Below, one piece after another: positions 2,394 to 6,761 of a DNA stretch of 7,001 nt. The notes under the pieces are model-generated. The model was not told the DNA's origin, did no database searches, and was given only the letters and a program-made list of their open reading frames with translations. How positions within the stretch are numbered: position 1 is the first letter of the stretch; the number at the start of each line of letters is the position of its first letter. The position numbers and the translations under genes were made by a program. The DNA comes from a bacterium (GTDB taxonomy: Bacteria; Thermosulfidibacterota; Thermosulfidibacteria; Thermosulfidibacterales; JALWSI01): NCBI GenBank assembly GCA_027080315.1, contig JALWSI010000089.1, positions 1 to 7,001 of the forward strand. Reading direction: 5' to 3'.

Positions 2394-2654
2394 TCTGGTC
2401 TGTTTGGTCGGTCTGGTCTATCTGGTTTGTCTGGTCTGTCTCGTCTGTCTGGTTCGTTTGGTCTATCTGGTCTGTTTGATTTGGGGTTTTAAGTTGCTTG
2501 TGAGTTTTAAGTTTCAAGTTTTAAGTTTTAAGAATCTGAGCATTTTACGTTTCACTCAATACTCAGTCCTCAGCACTCAGTCCTGCCCTTGGTCCTGCTC
2601 CTTCTCACGCCTTACTCCTCACGCTTCACGCTGATTCCTGACCACTGACCACTG
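2394..2654. repeat. Repeat mosaic, part A (TCTGG tract plus four other short repeat types)
   Basis: Starting 4 nt after the lemA stop, five blocks of degenerate short repeats follow one another. A pentamer/decamer tract around TCTGG, TCTGT and TCTAT spans about 2394-2479. TTTTAAG/TTTCAAG units span 2487-2532. CACTCAGTCCT units span about 2551-2585. CTTACTCC/TCACGC units span about 2606-2631. TGACCACTGA units span 2638-2654. Open frames across it exist only because the pentamer tract lacks stops and gives meaningless LVCLV repeats. No gene is credible here. Confidence 0.85.
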
Positions 2655-3048: not shown

Positions 3049-3471
3049 ATGATTCAGAGAATTCAAAGGTTAAGCAAAGAGAAAAAGGCGTTTACCCTGA
3101 TTGAGCTGATGATCGTGGTGGCAATTATCGCTATTCTGGCGGCATTGGCGCTGCCGCAGTACAACAAGTACCGCCAGAAGGCAGAGGCAAAGGAGATGCT
3201 TACCGGTGCCAGGGCTTGTGCTATGGAGATTGTGAGTGAGTGCATGGCAAATGGTGGCCAGAATCCTAACCTGAATGATACCGATGCCAGTGCCTATGAA
3301 TCATGTAGAAATTACAATTCCCCCAAGATAGGCAACGTGGATATAGTGCTCAATCCTTCTAATAACTGCTCTCAATTCCACGTTAATGCTGATGATAAAG
3401 CTGGTACCAATCCTTTCTACGCTAAATGTAATGGTAATTATCAGAATGGGGTAGAATGTTGGCTCAAGTAA
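3049..3471 (+). CDS. Type IV pilin, probable main subunit, with six cysteines
   Basis: A 140-residue class III prepilin. The leader is 14 residues and basic (ends KEKKA). Cleavage by the prepilin peptidase is expected between Ala14 and Phe15; the residue before the cut is Ala rather than the usual Gly. The mature N-terminus FTLIELMIVVAIIAILAALA is canonical, with Glu5 for subunit registration and Pro22 in the helix, followed by Tyr24 and Tyr27. Six cysteines (57, 65, 86, 107, 127, 137) suggest up to three disulfides in the globular head after export. The short C-terminus ends CWLK. AAGGAGG lies 7 nt before the ATG. It is first in the cluster, directly behind the sigma-54 promoter and followed by a strong hairpin, as expected for the most abundant subunit. 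It is PilA-like, but I give no symbol because the head domain does not match a pilin I can name. Confidence 0.93.
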   Translation: MIQRIQRLSKEKKAFTLIELMIVVAIIAILAALALPQYNKYRQKAEAKEMLTGARACAMEIVSECMANGGQNPNLNDTDASAYESCRNYNSPKIGNVDIVLNPSNNCSQFHVNADDKAGTNPFYAKCNGNYQNGVECWLK

Positions 3472-3512
3472 GTAGTAAATAACTAATAATATGATAATAT
3501 GCGGTAGGATTA

Positions 3513-3541
3513 GGCTGGCAGGGATTTGTGCCCTGCCAGCC
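3513..3541 (+). other. Strong hairpin between pilin 1 and pilin 2 (attenuator or mRNA-stabilising element)
   Basis: GGCTGGCAGGG at 3513-3523 pairs perfectly over 11 bp, mostly G-C, with CCCTGCCAGCC at 3531-3541 around the 7-nt loop ATTTGTG. It starts 42 nt after the pilin 1 stop and lies 43 nt before the next start. No U-run follows, so it is not a classical intrinsic terminator. A smaller 5-bp hairpin (CGAAA/TTTCG, 3545-3559) follows. It may protect the 3' end of the pilin 1 message or partly stop transcription so that downstream pilins are made in smaller amounts. Confidence 0.7.
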
Positions 3542-3583
3542 AGCCGAAAAGGTCTTTCGTGATAGGGATAGGAGAGATAAGGT

Positions 3584-3991
3584 TTGAACGGAGAGCCGGA
3601 TTTGAGGGTTGAGAATAGGGGATTTACTCTTGTGGAGTTAATGTTGGTTATTTTTATAATATCCGTTCTTACTGCTTTGTCGCTGGTCTATTACGGTCGG
3701 TATCATCAAAGAGCACGGGCGAAAGACCTGATGACGGTGGCGAGAGGCTGCGCGGCAGATGTGATATCCGAGTGTGTGGCCAAGAGTGGGAACATAGCCG
3801 ATCTTAGCACTTACTTTTTCCATTCATGTCAGAACCGAACAATGGAAGGGACAGGCGAGATAGAGACCTCTGTTGTAGGGTGTTGCACGGATTTCACCGT
3901 TGACTCGGTGGGAACGAAGGTTACCCTTTACAAGGGGGAGTGTACAGGAGACTATTCTGACAGACTGGAGTGTGACATTGTTGGAAGATAG
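3584..3991 (+). CDS. Type IV pilin-like protein, cysteine-rich paralogue of the first pilin
   Basis: A 135-residue class III prepilin counted from a TTG at 3584. A second in-frame TTG at 3602, with GGAG 8 nt before it, would give a 7-residue leader (MRVENRG) and is an equally good start. Cleavage falls after Gly13 (ENRG|FTLVEL), with Glu5 of the mature form present. The helix has Val at mature position 22 in place of Pro. Seven cysteines (56, 64, 82, 100, 101, 120, 130) line up with the six of the upstream pilin. The first two are at mature positions 43 and 51 in both, and the last two are 10 apart in both. AR-x-CA-x5-SEC is shared as well. This points to duplication and divergence, with this copy likely a minor pilin or a specialised alternative subunit. 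It is probably co-transcribed, lies after the hairpin, and its end overlaps the next pilin. Confidence 0.88.
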   Translation: MNGEPDLRVENRGFTLVELMLVIFIISVLTALSLVYYGRYHQRARAKDLMTVARGCAADVISECVAKSGNIADLSTYFFHSCQNRTMEGTGEIETSVVGCCTDFTVDSVGTKVTLYKGECTGDYSDRLECDIVGR

Positions 3992-4433
3992 ACAGGGGTT
4001 CACTTTGTTAGAGCTTATGATAACCGTAGCCATACTTGCCATTTTGGCGGCTGTTTCTCTATATGCGTACTCTCATTTCATCAGCTCTGGGCGTCAGGTT
4101 GGCCCAGTAAGAGCTCTGCTGGCGGCATCGGCGGCTGAAGAGCAGTACTACTCTGAACATGGAACTTATGCCACAAGCATTGAAGATCTCTCTGGCTTTG
4201 ATGACGGCACCACAGACAACGACTTTCGGCTCTTTGCCTCAAGTGGTAGCAACGAGAAGACCTACAAGCTGTGGGTTGCCAACGCAACCTCTTCTGGTTA
4301 CCGCATAGATGCCCAGAATCTTGCAGGCACCGATAGCTGGCACATAGCTTGCAATGCCACCTCTCCCATAGGATCCTGCAAGCCCGTACACGACACCGGC
4401 GAAAGCGGCGTGGTAGAGAAGGCCCTCAAATAG
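3978..4433 (+). CDS. Minor type IV pilin, PilE/ComP-like
   Basis: A 151-residue prepilin when started at the TTG at 3978, which has GGAG exactly 7 nt upstream and gives a 7-residue leader (MLEDRQG). A GTG at 3972 is possible but sits too close to that site. The frame stays open back to an ATG at 3900, but this would add an implausible 26 residues inside the previous gene. Cleavage falls after Gly7 (RQG|FTLLEL), with Glu5 present; the helix lacks Pro22. The segment AEEQYYSEHGTYATSIEDL (53-71) is typical of PilE-type minor pilins. Cys125 and Cys134 would close a C-terminal disulfide loop as in PilE and PilA heads. The start lies inside the last codons of the preceding gene (14-nt overlap), which indicates translational coupling. 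It probably primes or modulates the pilus; a pseudopilin role is less likely but open. Confidence 0.9.
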   Translation: MLEDRQGFTLLELMITVAILAILAAVSLYAYSHFISSGRQVGPVRALLAASAAEEQYYSEHGTYATSIEDLSGFDDGTTDNDFRLFASSGSNEKTYKLWVANATSSGYRIDAQNLAGTDSWHIACNATSPIGSCKPVHDTGESGVVEKALK

Positions 4434-4439
4434 GACTTT

Positions 4440-6761
4440 TCACTTTCTTTCATTGTTTGGGAGTAGTTCCTTCTCCAATGAGTGCGAACTCCGTGGCGTC
4501 CATTTGATCTCTTTTTTACCCCTTAGCATTCCCACAAGGGTTCTCAGGTTCTCTTTTGCGTCCTGGTAGTCTGGGTCTATGTTTAGGGCCAGGCGGTAGC
4601 TGTTTATTGCCTCTTTGTACCGCTTGAGCCCCCACAGGCAGTTGCCTATGTAGTTGTAATAGACCTTTTTGAGTGACTTTTTGGGGCATAGCACCACCGC
4701 CTTGGTGAATGAGTCTAACGCATCTTCAACATCAAACAGCTTGTACCGGGCAAGGCCCAAGAAAGCGTAGGTTCTCATGTCGGCGTCTCCCACCATGTCA
4801 AGGTACTTTTTCAGGTAACGCACAGACTCCTGGTACCTTGCGGCCTTGTAGCAGAGAATGCCGAGTTCTTTCATGGCAGGGGCGGCCCTGGGATTCAGTT
4901 TTAGGACGGTTTCCATCTCCTTTGTTGCCCTCTCTGTGTTGTTGTCAATCTCAAACATCTTGCCCAGCCTGAAGTGTAAAGAGGCAGACTTTGGCTTTAA
5001 TTTTATGGCCTTCTCGATCTCCTCCATAGCCTTCTCCCGCTGGTGGTTCTTCTCAAAGAGATCCGCCAGACCCTTGTAGGGATAGACAGAGTGGGGCGAT
5101 ATGGCCTTCAACCGCTCAAGCTCCTTCTTAATGGCGGTGGAGTTGCCCTTCTTCAAAAGGCTGCTCACCGAGGCAAAGGGCTTGAGATGCTTGAAGCACC
5201 CTGTGTCTGTTTTATGGGCGGTTCTGTTATCCACGTAAAGGGCTCTTTCGTCGTCCATGTTGACTAAGCACCAGGTGGAGTTGCCCCATAGCCACTTTGA
5301 GGGGGTTGAGCTTTTTCTCACTATTGCCACATTCACCCTGGTTCTTCCTATCTCGTTCCAGAATACCTGCTTAACCCTGTCGGTCTGGCGGTAGAGCCAG
5401 AAGTGAAACGGCGAATAGACCGTTGGGGTGCGCCCGTCTATGTAAACCCGGCAGTTGGGATATAGCCTCCATATCAAGAATCCCCCCATGCCGTACTCGT
5501 TGATGAGGTTTCCCTTTATGCCTTTATTTCTGACAAATTCCGTTATGTCCCAGGGGTAGAAGGACGCCACGGCCTTGCCGTAGTCTTTGGTCACCCTTGG
5601 TATCTCAAAGGCCTTCCAGGTCAAGGGAGCAAGGTAGAAGGCGATTATTATGCCAATTATAGCCTTGGTTTTAAGCTCTGCCTTTGAGAGCAGAACTGCA
5701 ACCCAGGGAATCAGAATCAGGGCATCAATGGCAACGAAGCGCGAGTGCTTCAGGGCAAGGAACAGGGTGAAGGGCAATAAGACTGCCAGGGCCACCGTTG
5801 CCCGTTTATCCCTCTTGAACCCCAAAGGTATGCAGAGGGCGGAGAGCAGAAATAGGAGACCCCGGGCCGACTCCCTTGTGCCGGGGATGAGGGTGAATAT
5901 CTCTTTCCACCTCATGGGATGCCACTCTGAGATGTTACGGGTGGCGTCTGCTCCCTTGCCAAGGTGAGAGGTGATGGCAAAGACCAGCATCTGAAACCCG
6001 TAAGGGGTGATGCAGGATACCACCAGAAGGGAGAGCATCAGGATCAGATGCCGGTGCAGCCAGTCCTTTTTCACCAACTCCCTCATGTGGAGCCCCAGGT
6101 CATCCCAGGCGTCTCCTAAAAAGAGTGCCCCTGCCACTGCAAAGGCCACAAGAAAGCTGCCGTGGGAGTTAAGCCAGACAAGGTAGAGAAGAAGAGCCGC
6201 CCCCAGTGCCCACCTTTTGCCCCTGCTTGCCCAGAGGTCTGCTGATTCGGTGAAGAGCACAAGGCATAAAAACCCCAAGATATGGGGCCTTGCCATGAAC
6301 CGTATCTGCACAATCACCACGGTGAGCATACCAAGGAGCACGGCTATGTAGGGGTTGCCGCATCGCCGCCTGAGCAGAAGGTAAAAAATGGCCATGGTTA
6401 AGGTGATTATGGCGACCTTCAGGGCCCAGAAGCCCCAAAGACCACCGGCCTTGTAGGTGAGAAAGGTTAGGACCTGAAAGAGCCAGCAGAGGTCTATCCA
6501 CCTGCAGCTGGTGCAGGTGTGAGAGAAAGGGTCAACCTGGGGAATCTGGTGGTGGGTGAATATCCACTTACCTGTGGCAAGGTGCCACCAGGGATCAAAG
6601 GTGCGGATGGGCCTTAGGGCAAAGACCAGAATTAGGGCCAGAAATAGCAGCACACCGAGAGCTTCAAAAGACCGCAGGAGTCCCTTGGGGTTTGAGAGCA
6701 GCCATTCCCAGACCCGGCTTATTCTCCTCCTTACAGCGCGAGATATGCCCTCTATGCCCAA
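4440..6761 (-). CDS. GT-C-like multi-pass membrane protein with C-terminal TPR domain, putative glycosyltransferase
   Basis: A 773-residue protein in two parts. Residues 1-400 carry about ten membrane segments in a GT-C-like layout. The first periplasmic loop holds FDPWWHLATG (55-64) and IPQVDPFSHT (73-82), a pattern I know from large bacterial membrane proteins often annotated as glycosyltransferase-like. Asp56 and Asp77 are candidate catalytic or metal-binding residues by analogy with other GT-C enzymes. KHSRF (338-342) and NEYGMGGFLIWRLYP...VYIDGR (421-444) are further signatures of this group. Residues about 555-745 form five or so TPR repeats (such as EKAMEEIEKAIKLKP). The start is a TTG at 6761 with AAGGAG 6 nt upstream; no usable ATG lies nearby. 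It converges on the pilin cluster with a 6-nt gap. Pilin glycosylation is a guess from position, as in TfpW/TfpO systems; other cell-surface glycans are equally possible. Confidence 0.85.
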   Translation of the reverse strand: MGIEGISRAVRRRISRVWEWLLSNPKGLLRSFEALGVLLFLALILVFALRPIRTFDPWWHLATGKWIFTHHQIPQVDPFSHTCTSCRWIDLCWLFQVLTFLTYKAGGLWGFWALKVAIITLTMAIFYLLLRRRCGNPYIAVLLGMLTVVIVQIRFMARPHILGFLCLVLFTESADLWASRGKRWALGAALLLYLVWLNSHGSFLVAFAVAGALFLGDAWDDLGLHMRELVKKDWLHRHLILMLSLLVVSCITPYGFQMLVFAITSHLGKGADATRNISEWHPMRWKEIFTLIPGTRESARGLLFLLSALCIPLGFKRDKRATVALAVLLPFTLFLALKHSRFVAIDALILIPWVAVLLSKAELKTKAIIGIIIAFYLAPLTWKAFEIPRVTKDYGKAVASFYPWDITEFVRNKGIKGNLINEYGMGGFLIWRLYPNCRVYIDGRTPTVYSPFHFWLYRQTDRVKQVFWNEIGRTRVNVAIVRKSSTPSKWLWGNSTWCLVNMDDERALYVDNRTAHKTDTGCFKHLKPFASVSSLLKKGNSTAIKKELERLKAISPHSVYPYKGLADLFEKNHQREKAMEEIEKAIKLKPKSASLHFRLGKMFEIDNNTERATKEMETVLKLNPRAAPAMKELGILCYKAARYQESVRYLKKYLDMVGDADMRTYAFLGLARYKLFDVEDALDSFTKAVVLCPKKSLKKVYYNYIGNCLWGLKRYKEAINSYRLALNIDPDYQDAKENLRTLVGMLRGKKEIKWTPRSSHSLEKELLPNNERK

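Follow-up and report, generated by a model that had tools for sequence, protein, structure and literature searches.

Type IV pili are strong under force, yet they must dissolve back into the membrane. The classical type IVa major pilins (PAK pilin, 1OQW; Neisseria PilE, 1AY2; Dichelobacter FimA, 3SOK) have, by model comparison, the same fold as the proteins described here and carry a C-terminal pair of cysteines; we take them to be without the two helix cysteines, and the head partners of these, with which this study is concerned. PpdD, the type IVa major pilin of enterohaemorrhagic E. coli (PDB 6GV9, 6GMS), presumably has four cysteines, not six, with only one in the helix, and one of its disulfides presumably involves a cysteine toward the C-terminal end of helix 1. 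PpdD has two disulfides (PMC11046646), which is the exception among pilins, the rule being one C-terminal disulfide (PMC11046646); an earlier reading of this DNA from its letters alone (hereafter the sequence-only reading) was thus broadly right in saying that most pilins have zero or two cysteines. Among large major pilins, ~9% have six or more cysteines, and many of these come from myxobacteria (PMC11046646). Pilins of this kind, such as Myxococcus xanthus PilA, resemble the proteins studied here in having many cysteines, and two head disulfides have been described (PMC11046646), but M. xanthus PilA differs in its size (208 residues), its CPxC motif, and its two free cysteines, and a pair of cysteines on helix 1 is not described in PMC11046646.

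Here we describe a clade of compact pilins with six cysteines, two of them on helix 1, of which we found no published account in the open-access text searched. The fold and the machine are those of the type IVa pilin.

Results

Two cysteine-rich pilin genes lie next to a minor pilin gene

The window (the whole stretch of DNA that was analyzed) is all of contig C89 (7001 bases), which belongs to a 1.84 Mb assembly that comprises 253 contigs and is ~94% complete. Three consecutive genes on the + strand encode pilin1, pilin2, and pilin3, all of which score above the Pfam N_methyl cut-off; for pilin1 and pilin2, this is part of the family check that the sequence-only reading had proposed. The features are as follows.

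2850–2865, + strand: sigma-54 (-24/-12) promoter-type site TGGCATATTTCTTGCT (pattern search, 0 mismatches)
3049–3471, + strand: pilin1, probable major type IVa pilin (Pfam N_methyl, E = 1.4e-8)
3513–3541, + strand: hairpin with an 11-bp perfect stem in the gap between pilin1 and pilin2, no T-run (RNA fold)
3584–3991, + strand: pilin2, paralogue with the six-cysteine framework and one extra cysteine (Pfam N_methyl, E = 2.1e-7)
3981–4433, + strand: pilin3, ComP/PilE-like minor pilin (Pfam N_methyl, E = 8.4e-9; ComP_DUS 34.1 bits, cut-off 27.3)
4440–6761, - strand: large membrane protein carrying TPR repeats at its C-terminus and the motif WWHLATGKWI (Pfam matches to TPR only)

The leader of pilin1 extends to 3090 and ends in Ala instead of Gly, and the mature protein starts at 3091 (FTLIELMIVV...). 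Translation of pilin2 may start at TTG 3584 or at TTG 3602, which has a nearer GGAG, and its mature protein starts at 3623. Both mature proteins carry F1 and E5, which, with the short charged leader and the hydrophobic helix 1 that they also have, are the N-terminal hallmarks of type IV pilins (class III signal, N_methyl); pilin2 has Val, not Pro, at position 22. Pilin3 starts at TTG 3981, so that it overlaps the end of pilin2 by 11 bases, and has a C-terminal CX8C pair. The coordinates and all of the cysteine numbers in the sequence-only reading were correct; pilin3, which overlaps the end of pilin2, went unmentioned there. Minor pilins resembling pilin3 also come after a six-cysteine pilin in Thermosulfurimonas dismutans and in genomes G103, G446, G443, G447, G442, and G673.

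The best NCBIfam model for pilin1 is that of PpdD (PRK10574, E = 2e-13). The match is confined to residues 11–72 of the precursor, and the scores of pilin1 (50.7 bits) and pilin2 (36.0 bits) lie below the 138-bit cut-off for PpdD equivalogs. The presence of a ComP-like minor pilin as the next gene, and an N-terminal motif that is common to the pseudopilins of type II secretion, would suit the possibility that both genes encode pseudopilins of a secretion system or a competence pseudopilus and that their products do not build a retractable type IV pilus. We consider this improbable, because a separate GspG-like gene and a cluster of GspH/I/J-like genes are found elsewhere in the genome, on other contigs, pilin1 has the N-terminus of a major pilin and scores only 28 against the 89-bit GspG cut-off, and regulators of the PilS/PilR type precede the relative in G006 (a genome of the same order). 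PilB- and PilT-type ATPases are encoded in the genome of the window, on other contigs than the pilins, and of the 11 N_methyl matches in this 94%-complete assembly, pilin1 alone is a classical major-type pilin.

The protein encoded at 4440–6761 is 29% identical, over 749 columns, to the product of the gene directly behind the six-cysteine pilin of G006, and genes of this type were seen next to six-cysteine pilins only within the order of the window. Its membrane half has no Pfam match. It is possibly a glycosyltransferase-like partner of the pilins. BLAST clustering also grouped this protein with a gene close to the G439 pilins, a match that we rejected because the latter encodes a YcaO-TPR protein and the two have only the TPR repeats in common. 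In the SRBZ-1 MAG, the place behind the six-cysteine pilin is occupied by a PMT_2 glycosyltransferase-like protein, hinting at pilin glycosylation. On the other side of the pilins, units of ~9 bases (TCTGGTCTG type) form two arrays (window positions 2394–2483 and 2694–2759), which, with further short repeats such as ACTCAGTCCTCAGCACTCAGTCCTG, fill the region that separates pilin1 from a LemA gene.

Six cysteines are conserved in a clade of compact pilins

Counted from Phe1, the cysteines of mature pilin1 are at positions 43, 51, 72, 93, 113, and 123, and those of pilin2 are at 43, 51, 69, 87, 88, 107, and 117. As the sequence-only reading had pointed out, both proteins have cysteines at 43 and 51, one central cysteine, a fourth cysteine (doubled to CC in pilin2), and a final pair spaced by 10. 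The two proteins are 36–39% identical and are thus paralogues, so common ancestry alone could account for the shared framework; the telling evidence is which features are kept in distant relatives.

Genome searches located members of the clade in G006, in G103 (from another phylum), in T. dismutans S95, and in one Thermodesulfobacteriota MAG. In all, we collected 40 full-length six-cysteine members from 26 genomes, which cover the order of the window, Thermodesulfobacteriota (including T. dismutans), and one further phylum. Within the class of T. dismutans, 17 of 41 genomes encode members of the clade, and six additional genomes of the same phylum do so too. The clade is not widespread: it was found in 13 of 395 genomes of that phylum and in only 3 of 386 genomes sampled across the domain.

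Every full-length member (40/40) has the complete framework, which consists of CX7C on helix 1, a cysteine in the alpha-beta loop, a cysteine at the first sheet turn, and a C-terminal pair; such conservation is not due to chance. The idea that these pilins are unusually disulfide-stabilized is supported. The first 32 members were chosen by the presence of CX7C at 43/51 or 44/52, which makes those two positions circular in that set, and the filter cost no full-length profile match. Their six cysteines align with no exception, and past residue 30 the sole other column conserved at 80% or above is a Tyr (81%). Eight later members were found by a profile search without the CX7C filter, and all have the six cysteines, with some ascertainment bias in that the profile was built from six-cysteine sequences and favors six-cysteine matches. 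We left out a second copy in G423 that has lost its N-terminal part, pieces cut by the end of a contig, and short partial matches in G427. Cysteines at both 43 and 51 occur, by the rule that defines the family, in none of 67 other pilins from the same loci, whose cysteine counts range from 0 to 10.

Homologs that lack these cysteines had been put forward as a way of refuting the proposal, and no full-length member of the clade is of this kind. Only a more distant set of related pilins, in the genus-level group of G103, has four cysteines; on an alignment of moderate quality, these proteins are without the equivalents of C51 and C93 together and keep the other four.

Several further cysteine-rich or thiol proteins were seen in these genomes. 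A separate minor pilin with 8–10 cysteines, of which C43 and C46 lie on helix 1, is encoded in L106, L108, L109, and L111, from four Thermodesulfobacteriota genomes; it is convergent with the six-cysteine pilins. An AhpC/TSA-type thiol protein (Pfam) adjoins the six-cysteine pilins of G423, and a gene of the same cluster adjoins those of G422 (the two loci being L147 7544–8032 and L148 8180–8674).

Predicted structures place two cysteines on helix 1

We modeled the mature proteins with AlphaFold, using shallow alignments of four sequences (those of the window and L063 only; pTM 0.62 and 0.67). In the models of both pilin1 (pLDDT 77.0) and pilin2 (pLDDT 84.5), a helix spanning residues 3–53 is followed by a four-stranded antiparallel sheet on which it packs, which is the type IV pilin fold. 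Foldseek found no match in the PDB under an E value of 0.001. This says nothing against a pilin fold. Pilins emerged when its candidates were realigned: the top rows from VIA-align were mostly type IV pilins (all Z scores were at most 8.4), the best being P. aeruginosa PilE (Z 8.4), and PAK pilin gave Z 7.5 with both models.

Cys43 and Cys51 had been placed on the N-terminal helix or at its edge, and in both models they lie inside helix 1. They are two turns apart, which by helix geometry corresponds to ~12 angstroms, and so they cannot bond each other. The terminal cysteines face each other across the strands of the predicted hairpin, whose register is 111–116/120–125 in pilin1 (C113 and C123) and 103–110/114–121 in pilin2 (C107 and C117). 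Each copy of a tandem pair in G484 has eight cysteines, and the extra two flank the terminal pair symmetrically in nearly the same register (106 and 126, compared with 110 and 121), as would be expected of a second cross-strand bridge.

The cysteines probably form three disulfides within each subunit

Of the 40 members, 33 have exactly six cysteines, a number that fits three intramolecular bonds; the others have seven (five members) or eight (two members). We think it probable that pilin1 is a type IVa major pilin and pilin2 a cysteine-matched accessory or second subunit, each with three intramolecular disulfides. According to this model, a type IVa pilus would have pilin1 as its main subunit, and pilin2, having arisen by lineage-specific tandem duplication, would enter the same filament. 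The Cys113–Cys123 bond would close the C-terminal hairpin, like the D-region disulfide of ordinary pilins, while Cys43 and Cys51 would each bond a head cysteine (Cys72 in the alpha-beta loop or Cys93 at the first sheet turn), so that helix 1 would be stapled to the head at two points. The helix–head pairing may be 43–72 with 51–93, or 43–93 with 51–72; either would staple the helix twice. The first arrangement is favored by the four-cysteine pilins of the G103 group, which are without exactly the equivalents of 51 and 93. The helix cysteine of E. coli PpdD, which we take to lie near position 50 and to bond the alpha-beta loop, would favor 51–72.

A VKOR-type oxidase would introduce the bonds in the periplasm. 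The genome of the window encodes a VKOR-thioredoxin-like fusion and a DsbC/G-like protein; VKOR scores above the cut-off only within the order of the window, and no oxidant was identified in several of the Thermodesulfobacteriota members. The likely gain is resistance of the head to unfolding, whether by heat or by the force of retraction, and assembly and retraction would not be blocked, as the bonds would stay within one subunit.

Three intramolecular bonds leave over the odd cysteine of pilin2, whose Cys87 and Cys88 are adjacent at the first sheet turn of the model. This seventh cysteine, which also occurs in the second copies of G408, G437, and G448, raises the alternative that some cysteines, and above all the extra one of pilin2, bond neighboring subunits, giving a cross-linked filament or locking pilin2 to pilin1. 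That seems unlikely, given the predominance of members with exactly six cysteines. The occurrence of seven cysteines in 4 of 16 second copies versus 1 of 24 other members is not significant (Fisher p = 0.14), and in this comparison G408 and G437 share ancestry; a covalent filament would also hinder PilT-driven retraction. We give a similarly small chance, and if anything a slightly smaller one, to a combined scheme in which helix 1, stapled twice and in a manner invariant across phyla, belongs to a tandem-duplicated two-subunit filament whose subunits are linked covalently through the extra cysteine of the second.

The sequence-only reading had also raised the binding of metal or heme, which would make for a redox-active or conductive filament. 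The lineages of the clade include iron- and sulfur-metabolizing anaerobes, and the clade proteins have many cysteines. However, the first 32 members contain neither CXXCH, the motif of multiheme cytochrome filaments, nor CXXC; by inspection, CXXCH is also absent from the eight later members, and CX3C occurs only in the two eight-cysteine members. Heme binding is thus contradicted, and metal binding receives no support. Electrically conductive pilins are described as having at least 9.8% aromatic residues and aromatic-free gaps of at most 23 residues (as quoted in PMC8860800). Aromatic residues (F, Y, W, H) make up 8.7% of pilin1, which has an aromatic-free stretch of 41 residues, and 10.7% of pilin2, which has one of 35 residues, so that neither protein fits this description. 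We regard a metal- or heme-binding filament as very improbable, and our preferred reading remains that of three disulfides within each subunit.

Side-by-side duplication recurred

Two intact adjacent copies are present in 14 of the 26 genomes, and two more have a pair with one incomplete copy. The second six-cysteine pilin of G423 (L115 1456–1731, - strand), which has lost its N-terminal part, is apparently decaying. The second copies fall into more than one group in a maximum-likelihood tree of the first 32 members, and forcing them together was rejected (p-AU 1e-8); on this tree, copy status (first or second) has to change at least seven times. As the tree rejects a single origin of second copies, side-by-side duplication recurred independently, and the cysteine framework is retained in both copies at each duplication. 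Pilin1 and pilin2 are sisters and each other's nearest relatives in the tree (support 90/78, not starred), which bears out the description of them as a duplicated cysteine-rich pair. Pilin2 has the longest branch, which, with its Val22, fits a specialized or minor subunit.

Regulatory signals surround the pilin genes

The TGGCATATTTCTTGCT site lies 183 bases upstream of the start of pilin1; a second sigma-54-like match, at 4338, is inside pilin3, and we treated it as chance. Exact sigma-54 sites are found 41–48 bases upstream of the first six-cysteine pilin in G006, G446, and G443, and sigma-54-type sites also precede the pilins in G476, G484, G763, and G546, with a separate site for each copy of the tandem pair in G484 (L170). 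None was found upstream of the pilins in the other members examined. In G006, a sigma-54-dependent response regulator and a sensor kinase are encoded just upstream of the six-cysteine pilin, which we take to be the classic PilR/PilS arrangement.

The RNA fold of 3472–3601, between pilin1 and pilin2, has a z score of -3.8 relative to shuffled sequences. Most other tandem pairs likewise have a hairpin between the two genes (G437, G448, G421, G426, G447, G440, and G408), and there is none in G446 and G443, in which the genes abut. The 3513–3541 hairpin is possibly an attenuator or an mRNA stabilizer; whether terminator-like or stabilizing, it may cause the output of pilin1 to exceed that of pilin2.

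Discussion

The pilins described here form part of a natural series with two, four, six, or eight cysteines, which, together with the 14 tandem pairs, offers a ready test of how disulfides relate to filament stability. The same series is equally suited to asking why bacteria maintain, next to each other, two major-type pilins that are so closely matched.
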